Shown: positions 6,161 through 27,764 of the stretch, one piece after another
Layout: every line of letters starts with the position of its first letter
Numbering within the stretch: position 1 is the first letter of the stretch
Assembly (NCBI RefSeq): GCF_009177065.1
Contig: NZ_WEZF01000014.1
Location: 62,001-126,000, forward strand
Length of the DNA stretch: 64,000 nucleotides
Reading direction: 5' to 3'
Source of the DNA: Tautonia marina
GTDB lineage: Bacteria; Planctomycetota; Planctomycetia; Isosphaerales; Isosphaeraceae
Program-made: the position numbers and the translations under genes
Notes under the pieces: generated by a model
Seen by the model: the letters and a program-made list of their open reading frames with translations, nothing else
Databases searched by the model: none
Told to the model about the DNA's origin: nothing

Positions 6161-7618
6161 ATGCACCCTGTCGCGACCCTTGGCCTGGCCATCGCCCTGG
6201 TCCTGTTCGGCATCCTGGCCCTGCGCCTGCACGCCTTCCTGGCCCTGCTGCTGGCGGCGTTCGTCGTGGCGACCTTGACGCCGGCCGAGACGCTCCGGTC
6301 GATCCCCGAGGCGAGGCTCGCCGCCGGGGACTGGACCGCCAAGCGGGCCGACGCCTTCGCCTCGTCGACCCCGGCGGCCCGCGTGGCCGAGGGGTTCGGT
6401 GACACGGCCGCGAGCATCGGCATCCTGATCGCGATGGCGGCGATCATCGGCAAGTGCCTGCTCGACAGCGGCGCCGCCGATCGCGTGGTCCGGTCGGCCG
6501 TCAACCTGGTGGGACAGGCTCGGGCCTCGCTGGCGTTCCTGGGCAGCGGGTTCGTGCTGGCGATCCCGGTCTTCTTCGACACGGTCTTTTACTTGATCAT
6601 GCCTTTGGGCAAGGCGATGTGGCTACGGAGCCGCCGCGATTACCTGCTCTATGTGCTCTCGATCGTGGCCGGGGCGACGATGGCCCACTCCCTCGTCCCG
6701 CCGACGCCGGGGCCGTTGCTCGTGGCCGGGGAACTCGGCGTGGACCTGGTGACGATGGGAGTCGCCGGCATGGTGGTTGGGTCGATCGCGGCGCTGGGAG
6801 GGTACGCCTTCGCCCGGATCTTGAATCGCCGGATGGACATCCCCTTGCGCGAGTCGGCCGACCTGTCGATCGAGGATCTCGAAGCCGTGATCCGCAAGCC
6901 TGACTCCGAGCTGCCGCCGCTCTGGCTGGCCCTGACGCCGATCGTCCTCCCTTTCCTGCTGATCGCCTCGGACGTGACGCTCAGCACGTATCTGGAGCGG
7001 CTCGACGGGGCCGAGCCGCTCGGATGGGTGGCGGCCGTGACCCCCCTGGTGCGAACGATTGGGGACAAGAACGTGGCGCTGACGATCGCCGCCGGAGTGG
7101 CCATGAGCATGCTGATCGCCCGCCCGGGGGTCGATCGGAAGTCCCTGGCCGAGGCCGTGCGGAGTGCCCTGGCCGGGGGCGGGGTGATCATCCTCATCAC
7201 CTCGTCGGGCGGTGCCTTCGGCGCGGCGATCCGGCAAGGCGGGGTCGCTCAGTCGATCGAGGCGATGGCGGGGGGCAGCTCGGCCGCCTTTGTCTTGCCG
7301 GTCGCCTTCCTGGTGACGGCCCTGGTCCGATCGGCCCAGGGATCGGCCACGGTGGCGATGATCACGGCCGTCGGCGTGCTCGCCCCCCTGGCCGAATCGG
7401 GGGCGCTCGGCTGCCACCCCGTCTACCTCGCCATGGCGATCGGCTGCGGCTCGAAGCCCGTCGCCTGGATGGCCGACAGCGGCTTCTGGGTCATCCTCCA
7501 GATGTCCGGCCTGACCGAGGCCGAAGGCCTGAAGACCGTCACGCCCATGACCGGCATCATGGGCCTCGTCGGCCTGGGGGCGACCATGCTCGGCGCCTGG
7601 CTCTGGCCGATGCTCTGA
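6161..7618 (+). CDS. GntP-family permease, second tandem copy
   Basis: This 485-residue paralogue of the preceding gene shares [30 protein letters not shown] and the C-terminal WMADSGFW signature, and has the standard family architecture without the large central insertion. It is an inner-membrane proton-coupled carboxylate/sugar-acid symporter by family. The tandem pair with a 45-bp gap suggests duplication followed by divergence in substrate or affinity. No kinase or dehydratase gene for gluconate use lies next to it. The downstream sigma-factor gene is convergent. Confidence 0.85.
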   Translation: MHPVATLGLAIALVLFGILALRLHAFLALLLAAFVVATLTPAETLRSIPEARLAAGDWTAKRADAFASSTPAARVAEGFGDTAASIGILIAMAAIIGKCLLDSGAADRVVRSAVNLVGQARASLAFLGSGFVLAIPVFFDTVFYLIMPLGKAMWLRSRRDYLLYVLSIVAGATMAHSLVPPTPGPLLVAGELGVDLVTMGVAGMVVGSIAALGGYAFARILNRRMDIPLRESADLSIEDLEAVIRKPDSELPPLWLALTPIVLPFLLIASDVTLSTYLERLDGAEPLGWVAAVTPLVRTIGDKNVALTIAAGVAMSMLIARPGVDRKSLAEAVRSALAGGGVIILITSSGGAFGAAIRQGGVAQSIEAMAGGSSAAFVLPVAFLVTALVRSAQGSATVAMITAVGVLAPLAESGALGCHPVYLAMAIGCGSKPVAWMADSGFWVILQMSGLTEAEGLKTVTPMTGIMGLVGLGATMLGAWLWPML

Positions 7619-7719
7619 GCGGGACGATCCGGGGTAGGGGCGCGGGGCTTTGGCATCCCTGGAGGTGTCGGCCCCGCCCTTCCGATTCCCAGGTCCTTGC
7701 CGATGTGAGCCGTCCGAGG

Positions 7720-10308
7720 TCACGGGACCTCGTCCGGCTCGGGGCCGGCCGGCGGCTCCGTCTCTAAGGGGCCTGGCATCGCCAGCGCCACGCGGACGAT
7801 GACACGGTCACGGAGTTCGGGATCGTCGATGCTCTGGAGCACGCCGCGGGCTGCGTCGAGTTCCCCGTCCTCTGCGAGCAGGGCCGCCAGGTTGGGAAGG
7901 AACTCGTCCCTGGCTTTCTCGGGAAGTTGCGCGGCCGTCTCGATCGCGGCCCGAGTCCCATCGAGCTTCAGGCGGATTCGGGCGAGATTCGACGCCGCCA
8001 GCACGATCCTGTTGGTCGTGGCGAGCAACGGATCCCAGCCGTTTGAGCGATCAGGCCTGGAAGACTCTCGGATGATGATCGTCCTGAGCTCGGCCTCTGC
8101 ACGTTCGAGCCCGTTCCGCAAGGCGGCCCGTGCCCCCAGATCATCGCCCGACGCTCGCCTGGCCTCATGAAGCTTGAGCCAATCGTTGCTGTCCGCGTCT
8201 CCTCGCTCGACGAGTTCCGCCGCGAGCGCTTCCGCTTCCTCAATCTCGCCGAGCCTGAGGTACTCTTCGGCCGCCACCCGGATCGGGAAGCTCCTCAACT
8301 CATGCCGCTCGATCGACTCGATGGACTCCCTGGCCTCACCCAACGTCTCGCGGGCTCCCTCCTGATCACCACCATCAAGCTGGGCCTGCGCAACCAAAGC
8401 AAGCAAGAATAATTTCATATGATTGTAAATCTCGGTCATGTGCGATGGGCCGCTCATCTCGATCCGCCGAATGGTCTCAATGGCGTCGTCGAACCGGCCA
8501 TGTCGGGCAAGGACCTGCGCAAGGGTGCTCAAATCTCCATTGCGACGCCAGGTTTCTTGCTCAACCCGTTCCTGCTGCAGTTCGCCCTCAGCCCTGATCA
8601 TGGTCTCGATGGCGTCGTCGAACCGGCCATGCCGGTCAAGAGCCTGCGCAAGGGTGCTCAAATCAATACGATTGCTATGAAGTTCTTGCTCGGCGCGTTC
8701 AGGTTGCAGTTCGCCCTCGGCCCGGATCGTTGTGTCGATTTCGGCAAGGATCTCGGTGAGGAATTCATCGTCCTCGGGCAACAGACTCTCGGCGATCGCC
8801 AGGAGGGCTTGGCGCCGATCAGGAGCACCCTCGGGGAATTGAAGGTGTGCAGCGGCCTTCACGTCGCGGATCGCCCGCGCAACCTCGCCGGAACGGGTCA
8901 GGATTCCCACTCGGATCAAGGTCGCCTCGGGCTCACCGAGTCCCGATCGTTCGACGAACGCGAGATACGGGTCGGCGACGGCCCGAATTCCTTCCCGGCC
9001 TATCCATTTTCCCCACATGGCAATGAGGCGCGTCCACTCACTTCGCTGCCGATGATTGTCCATTGCCTCGATGATCGGGATCGCCGCCCGGAAGGACTCC
9101 AGCGCCGCATCGCGGTCCCCCGCCTCGGCCTGGGCACTGGCGATTCGGGTGATCGGGTGTCTGGAGTTGCCCAGGGCCTCCACAGGGATTCTCTTCGCCG
9201 AATCACGGGCCAGTCTCAGGACTTCGAGGGCCTCGGCGGACTGGCCGCGCCGGCTCCGCGCCTGGCCGAGGCGCAGGAGGACCTCCGCCCGTCGCTCGGG
9301 GTCATCCAGCGATGCGGCAATCGCCTCGGCCCGTTGGTCGATCGCCTCGGCAGAGAGGGCGGGTGCCTGGCGATTCGGGACGGGTGAGGGCTCCCGGGAA
9401 GTCGAGCCCGAAGGGTTCCCCGGATTCGACCCCTGGGCCACGACCACGGCCGCGGCACCGGCGGCGCAGAGGCTGCCGCCGAGGACGAGGACGGCGGCGG
9501 TGGTTTTCAGCTTGGCAAGGAACATGGCGTGGATGACTCCTCGGGACAGGGCCGCGACGGTGGGGGAGAGGGAGGCGACGCCGGCCCCGGTGGCGGCGCG
9601 GCCGAGCGAGAGGGAGACGGCGGAGCGGACGGTCCGCTCCGTCAGGGCGTTCGGGACGATGCCTGCGAGGGCCGCAGGCGCGGGGAGGGTCGGGGAAGCG
9701 CCTCGGGACGAAAGGCGGGAGCGGAGCAAGGCCCGACCGCGGTTCAGGCGGGCCTTGATCGTGCCGACGGGGCAGCCGAGCCGGGAGGCGACCTCCTCGT
9801 AGGAGCAGCCGCCGAGGTCGTGCAGGGCGATCGGCCCGCGGTAGTGGGCGGGCAGGCGGTCGAGCTCGCGAAGCAAGGCCTCCAGGTCGCCGGGGGCGTC
9901 GGCGAGGGGGGGGACGGCGACGGCCTCGGGGCGGGCGGCACGGCGCTCGGAGTCGCGGCGGGATCGGGCGTCGGCGAGGGATCGGAGGGAGATCCGCCGG
10001 GCGACGCCGTAGAGCCAACTGGCGACCGAATCCCGACGGCGGATCGAGGCGGCCCGCTCGGCCAGGACGAGGAAGGTGGCCTGGTAGGCGTCCTCGGCGG
10101 CGTGCCGGTCGGAGAGGACCCCCCGGCAGACGCGCCAGACCATCGGCCCGTGGCGTCGGACGAGGGTCTCGAAGGCCGCATCGCCGCCGTCGTCCGGCTG
10201 CTGGAGGAAGCGGTCGAGCAACCGGCCGTCGGGCCAGTCGCCCATCGTCCCCAGGCGGAACAGGGTCCGCCAGTCGCTCCCCGCCATCTTCGACCGATTC
10301 CCCGCCAT
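7720..10308 (-). CDS. ECF sigma factor with transmembrane segment and TPR-rich C-terminal extension
   Basis: The 862-residue protein starts at ATG 10308, ten bases after GGAGG. Residues about 30-105 form sigma region 2 (FETLVRRHGPMVWRVCRG, DAYQATFLVLA) and about 145-200 region 4 (LDRLPAHYRGPIALHDLGG, SYEEVASRLGCPVGTIKARL). One hydrophobic segment near 261-292 (AAVLVLGGSLCAAGA) is followed by about 570 residues of helical TPR-like repeats, including a 43-residue tandem duplication (DNA 8471-8599 and 8600-8728). Planctomycetes are known for ECF groups with long C-terminal fusions thought to replace an anti-sigma factor. A membrane-tethered sigma controlled through its extracytoplasmic TPR domain is the simplest model. 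No anti-sigma gene is adjacent. Confidence 0.9.
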   Translation of the reverse strand: MAGNRSKMAGSDWRTLFRLGTMGDWPDGRLLDRFLQQPDDGGDAAFETLVRRHGPMVWRVCRGVLSDRHAAEDAYQATFLVLAERAASIRRRDSVASWLYGVARRISLRSLADARSRRDSERRAARPEAVAVPPLADAPGDLEALLRELDRLPAHYRGPIALHDLGGCSYEEVASRLGCPVGTIKARLNRGRALLRSRLSSRGASPTLPAPAALAGIVPNALTERTVRSAVSLSLGRAATGAGVASLSPTVAALSRGVIHAMFLAKLKTTAAVLVLGGSLCAAGAAAVVVAQGSNPGNPSGSTSREPSPVPNRQAPALSAEAIDQRAEAIAASLDDPERRAEVLLRLGQARSRRGQSAEALEVLRLARDSAKRIPVEALGNSRHPITRIASAQAEAGDRDAALESFRAAIPIIEAMDNHRQRSEWTRLIAMWGKWIGREGIRAVADPYLAFVERSGLGEPEATLIRVGILTRSGEVARAIRDVKAAAHLQFPEGAPDRRQALLAIAESLLPEDDEFLTEILAEIDTTIRAEGELQPERAEQELHSNRIDLSTLAQALDRHGRFDDAIETMIRAEGELQQERVEQETWRRNGDLSTLAQVLARHGRFDDAIETIRRIEMSGPSHMTEIYNHMKLFLLALVAQAQLDGGDQEGARETLGEARESIESIERHELRSFPIRVAAEEYLRLGEIEEAEALAAELVERGDADSNDWLKLHEARRASGDDLGARAALRNGLERAEAELRTIIIRESSRPDRSNGWDPLLATTNRIVLAASNLARIRLKLDGTRAAIETAAQLPEKARDEFLPNLAALLAEDGELDAARGVLQSIDDPELRDRVIVRVALAMPGPLETEPPAGPEPDEVP
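8471..8728 (-). repeat. 129-bp tandem duplication inside the TPR region
   Basis: Two near-identical 129-bp units, 8471-8599 and 8600-8728, both begin ATGGTCTC(A/G)ATGGCGTCG on the plus strand. Each encodes 43 residues with the words LSTLAQ and RHGRFDDAIET. The unit length preserves the frame, so it is a recent TPR duplication. Confidence 0.8.
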
Positions 10309-10677
10309 GAGCCCGGGTCCTCCTTACCCTATTGGTGTGCGCCGAGTGCCGGTGTCCTCTCCTCCATAGTGCATCGGGGAGGGGAGATTGTTGCACGATT
10401 TTGTGGCGGGGTCTGGTTTTGGGGCAATTGAGGCGCCCGGGAAGATGGACAGTTCGAGCGTGTCGGATGCGTTGAACGTTCCGAAGCGTCCGCACGGTTC
10501 GCACGGTTCGAAGGGGACAGAATACGATCAGATATGGAAATCTCGGCAGACGACGCTATGATCCCAGAACAAGGGGGACGCTCAGCGACGGCTTGACGAG
10601 GTGATTCTTGCCCGGACGCGCGCCCCTTGACGACCCGATCGCCGCCCGCCCCGAGTCCTCGACGGAGCCGAGTTGCC
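10309..10677. other. Divergent intergenic region before cydA
   Basis: These 369 bp lie between the sigma-factor and cydA starts. They contain a short direct repeat, GCACGGTTC twice in a row near 10492-10510, and an AT-richer stretch near 10528-10545, which could be part of a cydA promoter. I see no definite regulator site. Confidence 0.35.
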
Positions 10678-25929: not shown

Positions 25930-27150
25930 ATGTTCCTCCGCGAGATCACCCTCCGCAACCTCCTCTCCTTCGGCCCCGAGACGCCGCCCTTTGCGCTGCG
26001 CAATTTGAATGTTCTGATCGGACCGAACGGCTCGGGGAAGTCGAACTTCATCGAGGCGATCGGGCTGTTGCAGGCGGCGCCGACGGACATTACGAAGCCC
26101 ATCCAAAGAGGAGGAGGCATTGACGAATGGCTCTGGAAAGGATTGTCCGAAAAAGTCAAGGCGTCCATTACCATTGAATTGAATGAGCCAGAAAGCCTGT
26201 CTCCTTTCTCGATTTGGCATCATTGTGAGATCCAGGATCTGGGGCACGTCATCCCCCATTTCGCCGGGCAGGTCGAGGCGATTTCCATCTCAGACGAGTG
26301 GGTCGATATTCCGGCGAGCGAGGGTGACCGAAGGGAGCGAATCTTCGATCGTAAAAAGGAGCAGTCGTCGCCGCCTTCTTCCAGTACCGGTTCGCACAGC
26401 ATCGTGCTTGACCAAAATCAATCGATTCTGTCGCAGGCTTACCTCTTTGGCAGGGATCATGAAGAAGAGTTCATGCTCAAGCAGGCCCCGACGGCACTTC
26501 TCCTTTTATTGGAATTCTATAAAAGAATAAGAATTTACCGAGATTGGTCGTTCGGCCGTAGTTGTCCGCTCCGCCTGCCCCAACAGTCTGATGAGAAGGG
26601 TGATTTCCTCGCCGAAGACTATCTGAATCTGGGGCTTGTGTTGAACAGGCTCAAGCGGAATCTTCCTGTCAAGCGGGAGCTGCTTGAGTTGCTCGGCGAC
26701 CTCTATCCGGGGATCACCGACTTCGGGATTGATGTCCTCGGCGGTAGGGTTCAGCTCTACTTGGAGGAAGAGCGTTTCCCGGTCCCTGCGACTCGCCTGT
26801 CTGATGGGACCCTTCGTTATCTCTGCTTGCTCGCAATCCTTTGTCACCCGAAGCCGCCGCCGTTGATCTGCATCGAGGAGCCGGAACTGGGGCTGCACCC
26901 GGACGTGCTGGTGAACCTGGCGAAACTGATCAAGAAGGCGTCGGAGCGGACGCAGTTGATCATCACGACCCACTCGGAAATCCTGGTTGATGCCTTGACG
27001 TACTCGCCCGAGGACGTGGTTATCTGTGAGAAGGGGGAGTCGGGCACGGTGATGCGGCGACTCGACGGTGAGGATCTTAAGGAGTGGCTCGAACACTACA
27101 CCCTGGGTCAGCTCTGGAGCCGCGGCGAGATCGGGGGCAACCGCTGGTGA
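25930..27150 (+). CDS. AAA/ABC-type ATPase of the OLD/RecF-like (AAA_21) group
   Basis: The 406-residue protein begins MFLREITLRNLLSFGPE, typical of SMC/RecF-like ATPases. Walker A is GPNGSGKSN (31-39); the signature-like LSDGTLRY, Walker B LICIEEPELGLHP and H-switch ITTHSEILVDAL follow in order, with the catalytic Glu present. The middle third (about 26100-26680) is visibly AT-richer than the flanks, suggesting acquisition from outside. The stop overlaps the next gene (GTGA), so the two are translationally coupled. Such ATPases paired with Toprim-fold partners form defence systems (OLD nucleases, PARIS, Gabija); this may be a related split type. Confidence 0.88.
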   Translation: MFLREITLRNLLSFGPETPPFALRNLNVLIGPNGSGKSNFIEAIGLLQAAPTDITKPIQRGGGIDEWLWKGLSEKVKASITIELNEPESLSPFSIWHHCEIQDLGHVIPHFAGQVEAISISDEWVDIPASEGDRRERIFDRKKEQSSPPSSSTGSHSIVLDQNQSILSQAYLFGRDHEEEFMLKQAPTALLLLLEFYKRIRIYRDWSFGRSCPLRLPQQSDEKGDFLAEDYLNLGLVLNRLKRNLPVKRELLELLGDLYPGITDFGIDVLGGRVQLYLEEERFPVPATRLSDGTLRYLCLLAILCHPKPPPLICIEEPELGLHPDVLVNLAKLIKKASERTQLIITTHSEILVDALTYSPEDVVICEKGESGTVMRRLDGEDLKEWLEHYTLGQLWSRGEIGGNRW

Positions 27151-27764
27151 GCGTCGTCAAGCTCTATGTCGAGGGGGGCGGGAATCGGGTCCTGGACCAG
27201 GGGCTCCGGGACGCCTTCAAGCGGTTCTTCGCTAGGTCGGGCCTCCCTGAGGCGAGCATCGTCATCCGGGTGTGCGGGAGCCGTCGCGATGCGTTCAGGG
27301 ATTTCGGGATCGCGTTACGTAAGGCCGGACCGGTGCAAGCGCCGATCCTGCTGGTCGATAGCGAGGAGGCCGTCCTCCCCCAACACTTCGGGAAGCCGTG
27401 GGACCATCTGCTCCGGGTCGACCGGTTTTCCAGGCCTGGGGGAGCGACCGACGATCAGGCCCACCTGATGGTCCAGTGCATGGAGAGCTGGTTCCTGGCC
27501 GATCGCCAGTGGCTCGCGAGGTACTTCGGCCAGCACTTCCACTCCGGGGCGTTGCCGGGGGCGTCCAATATCGAATCGATCGATAAGCGTCGCGCTCTGG
27601 AGGCGCTCGGCGGCGCGACAAAGGCATGTCAGAAGGGCAAATATAATAAAGGGAAGCACTCTTCCGAGATCCTCGCCGGCCTTGATCCCAAGAGTGTCAA
27701 GGAGGCGTCGGCGCATGCCCAGAGGTTGTTCGAAACGCTGAAGGCGAAGGGCTCGGGACGATGA
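27147..27764 (+). CDS. DUF4276 Toprim-like protein, partner of the AAA ATPase
   Basis: I take GTG 27147 as the start (205 aa), since it overlaps the ATPase stop as GTGA and yields VSVVKLYVEGGG, the usual DUF4276 opening. The Glu in VEGGG (E9) and the acidic pair in ILLVDSEE (D71, E73) match the Glu and DxD/E positions of a Toprim metal site. HLMVQCMESWFLAD is a second family block. DUF4276 is uncharacterised but generally encoded beside AAA ATPases; a nuclease or effector role is inferred. Its stop overlaps the next start as ATGA, so it is also coupled to the glycosyltransferase gene. Confidence 0.85.
   Translation: MSVVKLYVEGGGNRVLDQGLRDAFKRFFARSGLPEASIVIRVCGSRRDAFRDFGIALRKAGPVQAPILLVDSEEAVLPQHFGKPWDHLLRVDRFSRPGGATDDQAHLMVQCMESWFLADRQWLARYFGQHFHSGALPGASNIESIDKRRALEALGGATKACQKGKYNKGKHSSEILAGLDPKSVKEASAHAQRLFETLKAKGSGR

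Follow-up and report, generated by a model that had tools for sequence, protein, structure and literature searches.

The 862-residue protein P0001, encoded within a 64,000-nucleotide stretch of Tautonia marina DNA (the window), combines an ECF sigma factor, a conserved linker, a single hydrophobic segment and a long helical-repeat tail in one chain, and synonymous divergence between its gene and a syntenic orthologue rises abruptly just past the hydrophobic segment. We read P0001 as a one-component transmembrane signalling device whose chassis stays constant while its tail is replaced in situ, and put the probability of this reading at about 0.6. A preliminary description of the locus had proposed a membrane-tethered sigma factor, for which the conserved sequence features argue, but it had missed the sharp break in divergence between chassis and tail, which is the part worth following.

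A break in divergence at the membrane helix

The orthologue in genome G003 is syntenic: in both genomes the gene stands between GntP-type permeases and genes for cytochrome bd. Up to and including the membrane segment the two genes are close, with 97% protein identity and a dS of 0.19 in the sigma part, 98% and 0.09 in the linker, and 81% and 0.07 in the membrane segment. In the tail, identity is 48% and dS is about 1.15 (pS 0.59), compared with a dS of 0.22-0.38 in five flanking gene pairs. A further 33 ORF pairs from all over the window were picked mechanically, and some of them may not be genes; in 31 of these pS is 0.13-0.42, and in two it is 0.54 and 0.47. Amino acid replacement is also elevated, with a tail dN of 0.50 and a dN/dS of 0.43 versus 0.10 in the sigma part. 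At the DNA level, the divergent part appears as an island of low identity to the G003 locus (Table 1), flanked by sequence at 7501-7800 and 9301-10425 in which identity is 0.80-1.00 per 75-bp bin, so that it recovers near the stop codon; beyond 10426, between the genes, it drops once more. The sigma gene is divergently oriented from cydAB, which encodes the cytochrome bd oxidase, and the region between them (10309-10626) is ~0.75 kb longer in G003.

When synonymous differences are counted at identical residues, the best change point is residue 299, just past the helix (LR 89), with 31 differences at 264 residues before it and 115 at 236 after it (P=3.4e-20). The contrast persists in a stricter test limited to runs of at least three identical residues, to which chance adds ~0.6 residues (30/260 versus 35/70, P=3.4e-11). 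At four-fold sites in blocks of at least 60% local identity the step is weak (11/112 versus 7/29, P=0.058); we prefer the run test because most of these blocks come from the island's margins. Chance alignment was rejected as the cause of the step, since the identical-residue and run tests keep the contrast, although the test on well-aligned blocks is weak. Low GC3 was rejected as well: the tails of C1 and C26, two other chassis genes of the same genome, have GC3 values of 0.69 and 0.72, yet their synonymous divergence is at background level.

A third orthologue, from genome G002, gives the distances some scale. The chassis of P0001 and its G003 orthologue are 95% identical and each is 60-61% identical to that of G002; in the same three-way comparison the tails are 42% identical between the window and G003 and 33-45% identical between either and G002. 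Judged by identity, the distance between the tails of the window and G003 almost equals the distance of either from that of G002. The G002 orthologue (L055 7042-9440) is at a locus that is not syntenic with the window, and a frame change interrupts its tail. No donor of the tail was found in the 45 family genomes searched: the window tail has matches at E <= 1e-10 in six of them, its own included, and beyond G003 and G002 these are only 26-33% identical.

Table 1. Features of the P0001 locus, in window coordinates
Feature	Position	Strand	Basis or value
P0001, 862-aa ORF: ECF sigma factor, linker, one membrane helix, helical-repeat tail	7720..10308	-	Translation, Pfam, AlphaFold
Sigma region 2, residues 49-115, including C61 of the ECF57-type cysteine pair	9964..10164	-	Pfam PF04542, E 9.2e-12
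Sigma region 4, residues 143-195, with His163 at the family's Cys column	9724..9882	-	Pfam PF08281, E 4.4e-14
Conserved linker, residues 205-262, predicted helix 220-241	9523..9696	-	98% identity to G003 orthologue, dS 0.09; AlphaFold
Membrane helix, residues 266-294, preceded by Lys-Leu-Lys	9427..9513	-	Hydropathy, charge, alignment; AlphaFold helix 266-287 at low pLDDT
Tail, residues 299-862: unstructured to ~319, then helical TPR-type solenoid 320-843; presumed extracytoplasmic	7723..9414	-	
43-residue repeat unit, first copy, residues 527-569	8602..8730	-	Self-comparison
43-residue repeat unit, second copy, residues 570-612	8473..8601	-	Self-comparison
Island in which DNA identity to the syntenic G003 locus is low	7801..9300		0.41-0.73 per 75-bp bin

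Architecture of the protein

We judge the gene to be real. By Pfam, hydropathy and AlphaFold taken together, sigma regions 2 and 4, a membrane helix and a TPR-like tail are joined in one protein, as had been claimed, and this architecture is of a known kind that is common in its family. Both sigma regions score above the curated Pfam cut-off, TIGR02937 matches with 73.4 bits against a cut-off of 42.9, and no model of sigma region 3 is among the listed matches. With regions 2 and 4 present and region 3 absent, P0001 is an ECF sigma factor of the sigma-70 family. Several TPR models of Pfam match the tail, weakly to moderately, and some of them above cut-off.

The AlphaFold model, built on an alignment input of 32 sequences, has a mean pLDDT of 79, with values mostly around 90 in the sigma domains. 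The linker helix is modelled confidently in its part 220-230, and L222 within it is nearly invariant in the family alignment. Residues 242-314, which include the predicted membrane helix, are drawn at pLDDT <50; helices then run throughout the tail, most blocks of which exceed 80. Foldseek searches against the PDB matched the sigma part to a Mycobacterium SigE chain, and the tail to TPR/PPR solenoids of eukaryotic or designed origin; TM-scores for these were low, and no closer functional lead emerged.

Membrane anchoring, orientation and release

The preliminary description had placed a membrane segment at residues 261-292, and on the Kyte-Doolittle scale a hydrophobic segment is indeed present, with a mean of 2.25 over the 21 residues 271-291. 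The feature is shared: in 85 of 93 family proteins the position of the helix is occupied by 18 or more consecutive uncharged residues of high hydropathy, and only two of the 93 reach the same hydropathy inside the sigma part (94 proteins were taken, of which L110 fell below the length limit). Charge is distributed unevenly around it, the 15 residues before the helix carrying a mean net charge of +1.96 and the 15 after it -0.37; the flank before is the more positive in 79 of the 93 and equal in nine. Both the boundaries of the helix and its orientation rest on such sequence rules, because AlphaFold has little confidence in this part of the chain. Some tails of related proteins carry HlyD/CusB, polysaccharide-export/SLBB, Big_1 or carboxypeptidase-regulatory-like domains, and that of a paralogue in the same genome (C30) has Ig-like domains, all of which are typically found outside the cytoplasm or in the envelope; WD40, redoxin and SnoaL domains, also seen in the tails of relatives, are not diagnostic of location. 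The positive-inside rule and the envelope-type domains in sister tails together place the tail outside the cytoplasm, and P0001 is probably a membrane-anchored protein whose tail lies outside the cell membrane. In Tuwongella immobilis, a related planctomycete, ECF sigma factors occur in detergent-soluble fractions (Triton and SDS), in passages of the source that do not state whether these proteins have such a helix (PMC8567305).

Pfam finds no anti-sigma candidate in the six ORFs neighbouring the P0001 gene, and Pfam and TIGRFAM-type searches of the linker gave no match to an anti-sigma family model; from the structural model, the conserved linker helix at 220-230 could act as an anti-sigma-like segment. 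By analogy with known systems, P0001 is perhaps released by intramembrane proteolysis. Seven separate loci of the genome match the M50 family of site-2 proteases (11 match rows); as such proteases are also present in 14 of 14 control genomes, they lend the proposal weak support. Just before the membrane helix, a Met (P0001 residues 262-264, ~9517-9525) recurs in most of the family, in 31 of 33 proteins of one set and 53 of 59 of another.

One chassis, many tails

In four further ORFs of the same genome, similarity to P0001 extends through the hydrophobic segment and stops there. The tail of one of these, C30, has carboxypeptidase-regulatory-like and Ig-like domains, and Pfam finds no domain in the tails of the other three; an HlyD-like identity considered for the tail of C23 was dropped on this ground. 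Among 59 genomes searched, including its own, all match P0001 somewhere, many through ordinary sigma-region matches. The best match reaches E <= 1e-25 in 39 of the 59, comprising 30 of 37 genomes of its own family and nine of 22 from other families of the class. At this level, 54 matches fall in one Singulisphaera genome (G011) and 38 in another (G028). The best 80 of 592 named matching loci all bear planctomycete titles.

The tails of these proteins are diverse. HlyD/CusB barrel-sandwich domains occur in five of 33 family members, and polysaccharide-export/SLBB and Big_1 domains in one each; in 59 Singulisphaera relatives we find carboxypeptidase-regulatory-like domains (8), Big_1 (7), PD40 (4) and WD40 (2). 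TPR, Ig-like, thioredoxin-like, SBP_bac_10 and other kinds add to the range across the family. GC3 is lower in the tail than in the chassis in 47 of the 59 Singulisphaera proteins and in four of five members from the window's own genome. Alignment A1 comprised 33 of 34 sequences, leaving out the interrupted L033 (340 aa), A2 and A3 comprised 32 of 34, leaving out L024 and L033, and A4 comprised 59 of 60, leaving out L110, which is short and interrupted.

Generality of the step

Three other chassis genes of the same genome have orthologues in G003, and one of these pairs shows the step. This pair, C23/C2a, has the same kind of island, from the helix to the stop codon, after which identity is 0.86-0.98, and it passes the strict run test with P=5.7e-9. 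The C1/C18 and C26/C3 pairs have no synonymous step, and C1/C18 is flat in the run test too. No orthologue of C30 is present among the five other G003 genes. The G003 orthologue of C26, L081, is a gene broken into three frames.

Between the two Singulisphaera genomes, we took 20 of the 38 genes of G028 and 40 of the 54 of G011; 18 of the 20 G028 genes have reciprocal best hits, and 15 of these have a chassis identity of at least 78%. The step is present in four of the 15 pairs (P 6e-5 to 1.2e-2), all four at a 5% false discovery rate. The strict run test, which covered eight of the 15 (these four candidates and four controls, all of the controls flat), was passed by L083/L105 (8.2e-4) and L085/L111 (1.4e-3), with break points at residues 266 and 364, and failed by L091/L109 (P=0.83) and L087/L112 (P=0.25). 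The other 11 pairs have no tail-ward step, and in L098/L118 the tail is slightly less diverged than the chassis (P=0.048). Several Singulisphaera tails have a dN/dS above that of their chassis and no synonymous step.

The two ORF pairs of the window with the highest pS outside P0001 are adjacent, at 25930-27761, and consist of an AAA_21 (AbiEii/OLD-like) ATPase gene and a DUF4276 gene. This looks like a defence-type pair that has itself been exchanged.

An older duplication in the tail

The tail contains a 129-bp tandem duplication that keeps the reading frame, as had been described (Table 1). The best 43-residue self-match in the tail scores 32, whereas none of 50 shuffled versions of the tail exceeded 14. 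The description of the copies as nearly identical did not hold: they agree at 99 of 129 bases and 32 of 43 residues (77% DNA identity), with a dS of 0.61 and a dN of 0.20, and only a 65-nt part reaches 92% identity. Nor do the copies support a fresh duplication or active repeat expansion, since the pS between them, 0.42 over 43 codons only, is at least as high as in 31 of the 33 other ORF pairs between the window and G003. As copies that differ as much as most orthologues between the two species, or more, do not point to a recent event, we reject a recent duplication on the DNA identity and dS, although the second copy is absent from G003. The G003 orthologue is 819 aa long, 43 shorter than P0001, and has one copy, with no comparable 43-residue self-match in its tail (best 16/43); the G002 orthologue has, by eye, one 43-residue unit. 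On these divergences, the duplication is a minor, older event.

Alternative explanations

The step might reflect no replacement, with the tail having evolved very fast after the two species split, under relaxed or diversifying selection. The high dN and dN/dS of the tail would fit such a history, as would the several Singulisphaera tails in which dN/dS is raised with no synonymous step. However, in P0001 the synonymous differences are also up four- to five-fold, and they are bounded at the helix; the tails of C1 and C26 stay at background synonymous divergence; and the tails of the window, G003 and G002 are nearly equidistant when the chassis are not. We consider fast evolution alone unlikely because it leaves the synonymous step unexplained. 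A chimera formed during assembly, in which a tail and a chassis of different organisms were joined in a metagenome bin, has in its favour that the window's genome (G000, 80 contigs) and G003 (about 70) are both drafts, but the island is confined to a single gene, to either side of which the DNA is conserved, and a similar island is seen between two isolate-type Singulisphaera genomes (G028 and G011), making this explanation extremely improbable.

Two further alternatives concern the protein and not its history. P0001 may be soluble or peripheral, with a cytoplasmic TPR tail that binds a partner protein, as in ECF42, and a hydrophobic segment that is merely a buried helix. The tail is an ordinary TPR-type solenoid, and the TPR-rich extensions of ECF42, of ~200 residues, are thought to bind partner proteins, in passages of the source that do not mention a membrane helix (PMC8999054). 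A buried helix accords poorly with a 21-residue segment of this hydropathy, with an uncharged hydrophobic stretch conserved among proteins whose tails are unlike, and with the envelope-type domains in sister tails, and we think a soluble protein quite improbable. It is very unlikely, though suggested by the Met column with the Lys-rich stretch and hydrophobic segment that follow it, that translation also starts internally at this Met and makes the tail as a second, secreted product whose N-terminus resembles a signal peptide; the conserved Met may instead be structural.

Proposed mechanism and implications

In the reading that we prefer, of a transmembrane device with a replaceable tail, the N-terminal ECF sigma factor would lie in the cytoplasm, a single helix would cross the membrane, and a TPR-type solenoid of ~540 residues would stand outside to bind a protein or an envelope ligand. 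A signal received there would activate the sigma part. The likeliest route is regulated intramembrane proteolysis, in which a cut in or close to the membrane helix would free the sigma part to bind RNA polymerase. The sigma domains, linker and helix would form the constant chassis, with the tail as a module that evolves separately. The simplest account is that homologous recombination within the conserved chassis and the conserved downstream DNA imported a divergent allele of the same tail, and we infer that an old, divergent version was placed in this way in either the window lineage or the G003 lineage.

Whether this extends to the family is a more tentative matter. We regard it as possible, at somewhat less than an even chance, that Isosphaeraceae have dozens of one-chain transmembrane sigma factors with a constant chassis of sigma domains, linker and helix, whose outside tails are exchanged in place between lineages by recombination just past the helix. 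If true, these genomes would maintain a standing repertoire of swappable sensors within a transcription factor, an evolutionary style like that of defence islands or of surface antigens with mosaic structure. For most ECF sigma factors, sensing the outside depends on a second protein, a membrane anti-sigma factor; in this family a single chain would serve as sensor, membrane anchor and transcription factor, in tens of copies per genome. Tails swapped on a fixed chassis would amount to a natural domain-swap experiment, in which tails can be related to signals and chassis to promoters, and the same exchange could be used for building sensors. It would also provide a testable account of how planctomycetes diversify a very large signalling repertoire.

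Relation to known ECF sigma factors

Judged by analogy, the closest experimental parallel to P0001 is IutY (ECF243) of Pseudomonas putida. Like SCO4117 (ECF52) of Streptomyces coelicolor, it has a sigma factor followed by a C-terminal membrane segment and a periplasmic part, and P0001 has, by its predicted topology, the same placement of a membrane helix between the sigma factor and an outside part. Intramembrane proteolysis activates IutY, and Prc and RseP set it free (PMC8999054). The extensions of IutY and SCO4117 are anti-sigma-like, whereas the linker of P0001 has no anti-sigma match and its tail is a TPR solenoid. Sven_0747 of Streptomyces venezuelae, an ECF42 protein, resembles P0001 in that its ECF sigma factor is extended at the C-terminus by TPR-rich sequence. 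In ECF42, however, the extension follows directly on sigma region 4, whereas the far longer solenoid of P0001 begins past the membrane segment, and Pfam finds no YCII-related gene among the six ORFs neighbouring the P0001 gene. The RsgI-type membrane anti-sigma factors of Clostridium are parallel regulators in which varied outside sensor domains feed sigma signalling (PMC12203970); their sensor is on a separate anti-sigma factor, whereas in P0001 sensor and sigma factor would share one chain.

By its group description, ECF57 (for example WP_015250107.1 of Singulisphaera acidiphila) is the nearest named group, similar to P0001 in being planctomycete and in having a large C-terminal extension, although this is often WD40-like in ECF57 and is TPR-type in P0001. 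The passages on ECF57 report two conserved cysteines, one in each of sigma regions 2 and 4, and place the group under protein interaction, with a disulphide or metal link suspected and a membrane helix unmentioned there (PMC8999054). The P0001 family as a whole has both cysteines, the one in region 2 in 31 of 33 and 58 of 59 members, and the one in region 4 in 30 of 33 and 57 of 59. P0001 retains the first, but it and its G003 and G002 orthologues have a His at the second column (His163, 9820-9822), and C179 of P0001 is outside that conserved column. We file P0001 as ECF57-like, and not as a tested member, because His163 replaces the second cysteine. A His at this position might keep a metal site and exclude a disulphide.
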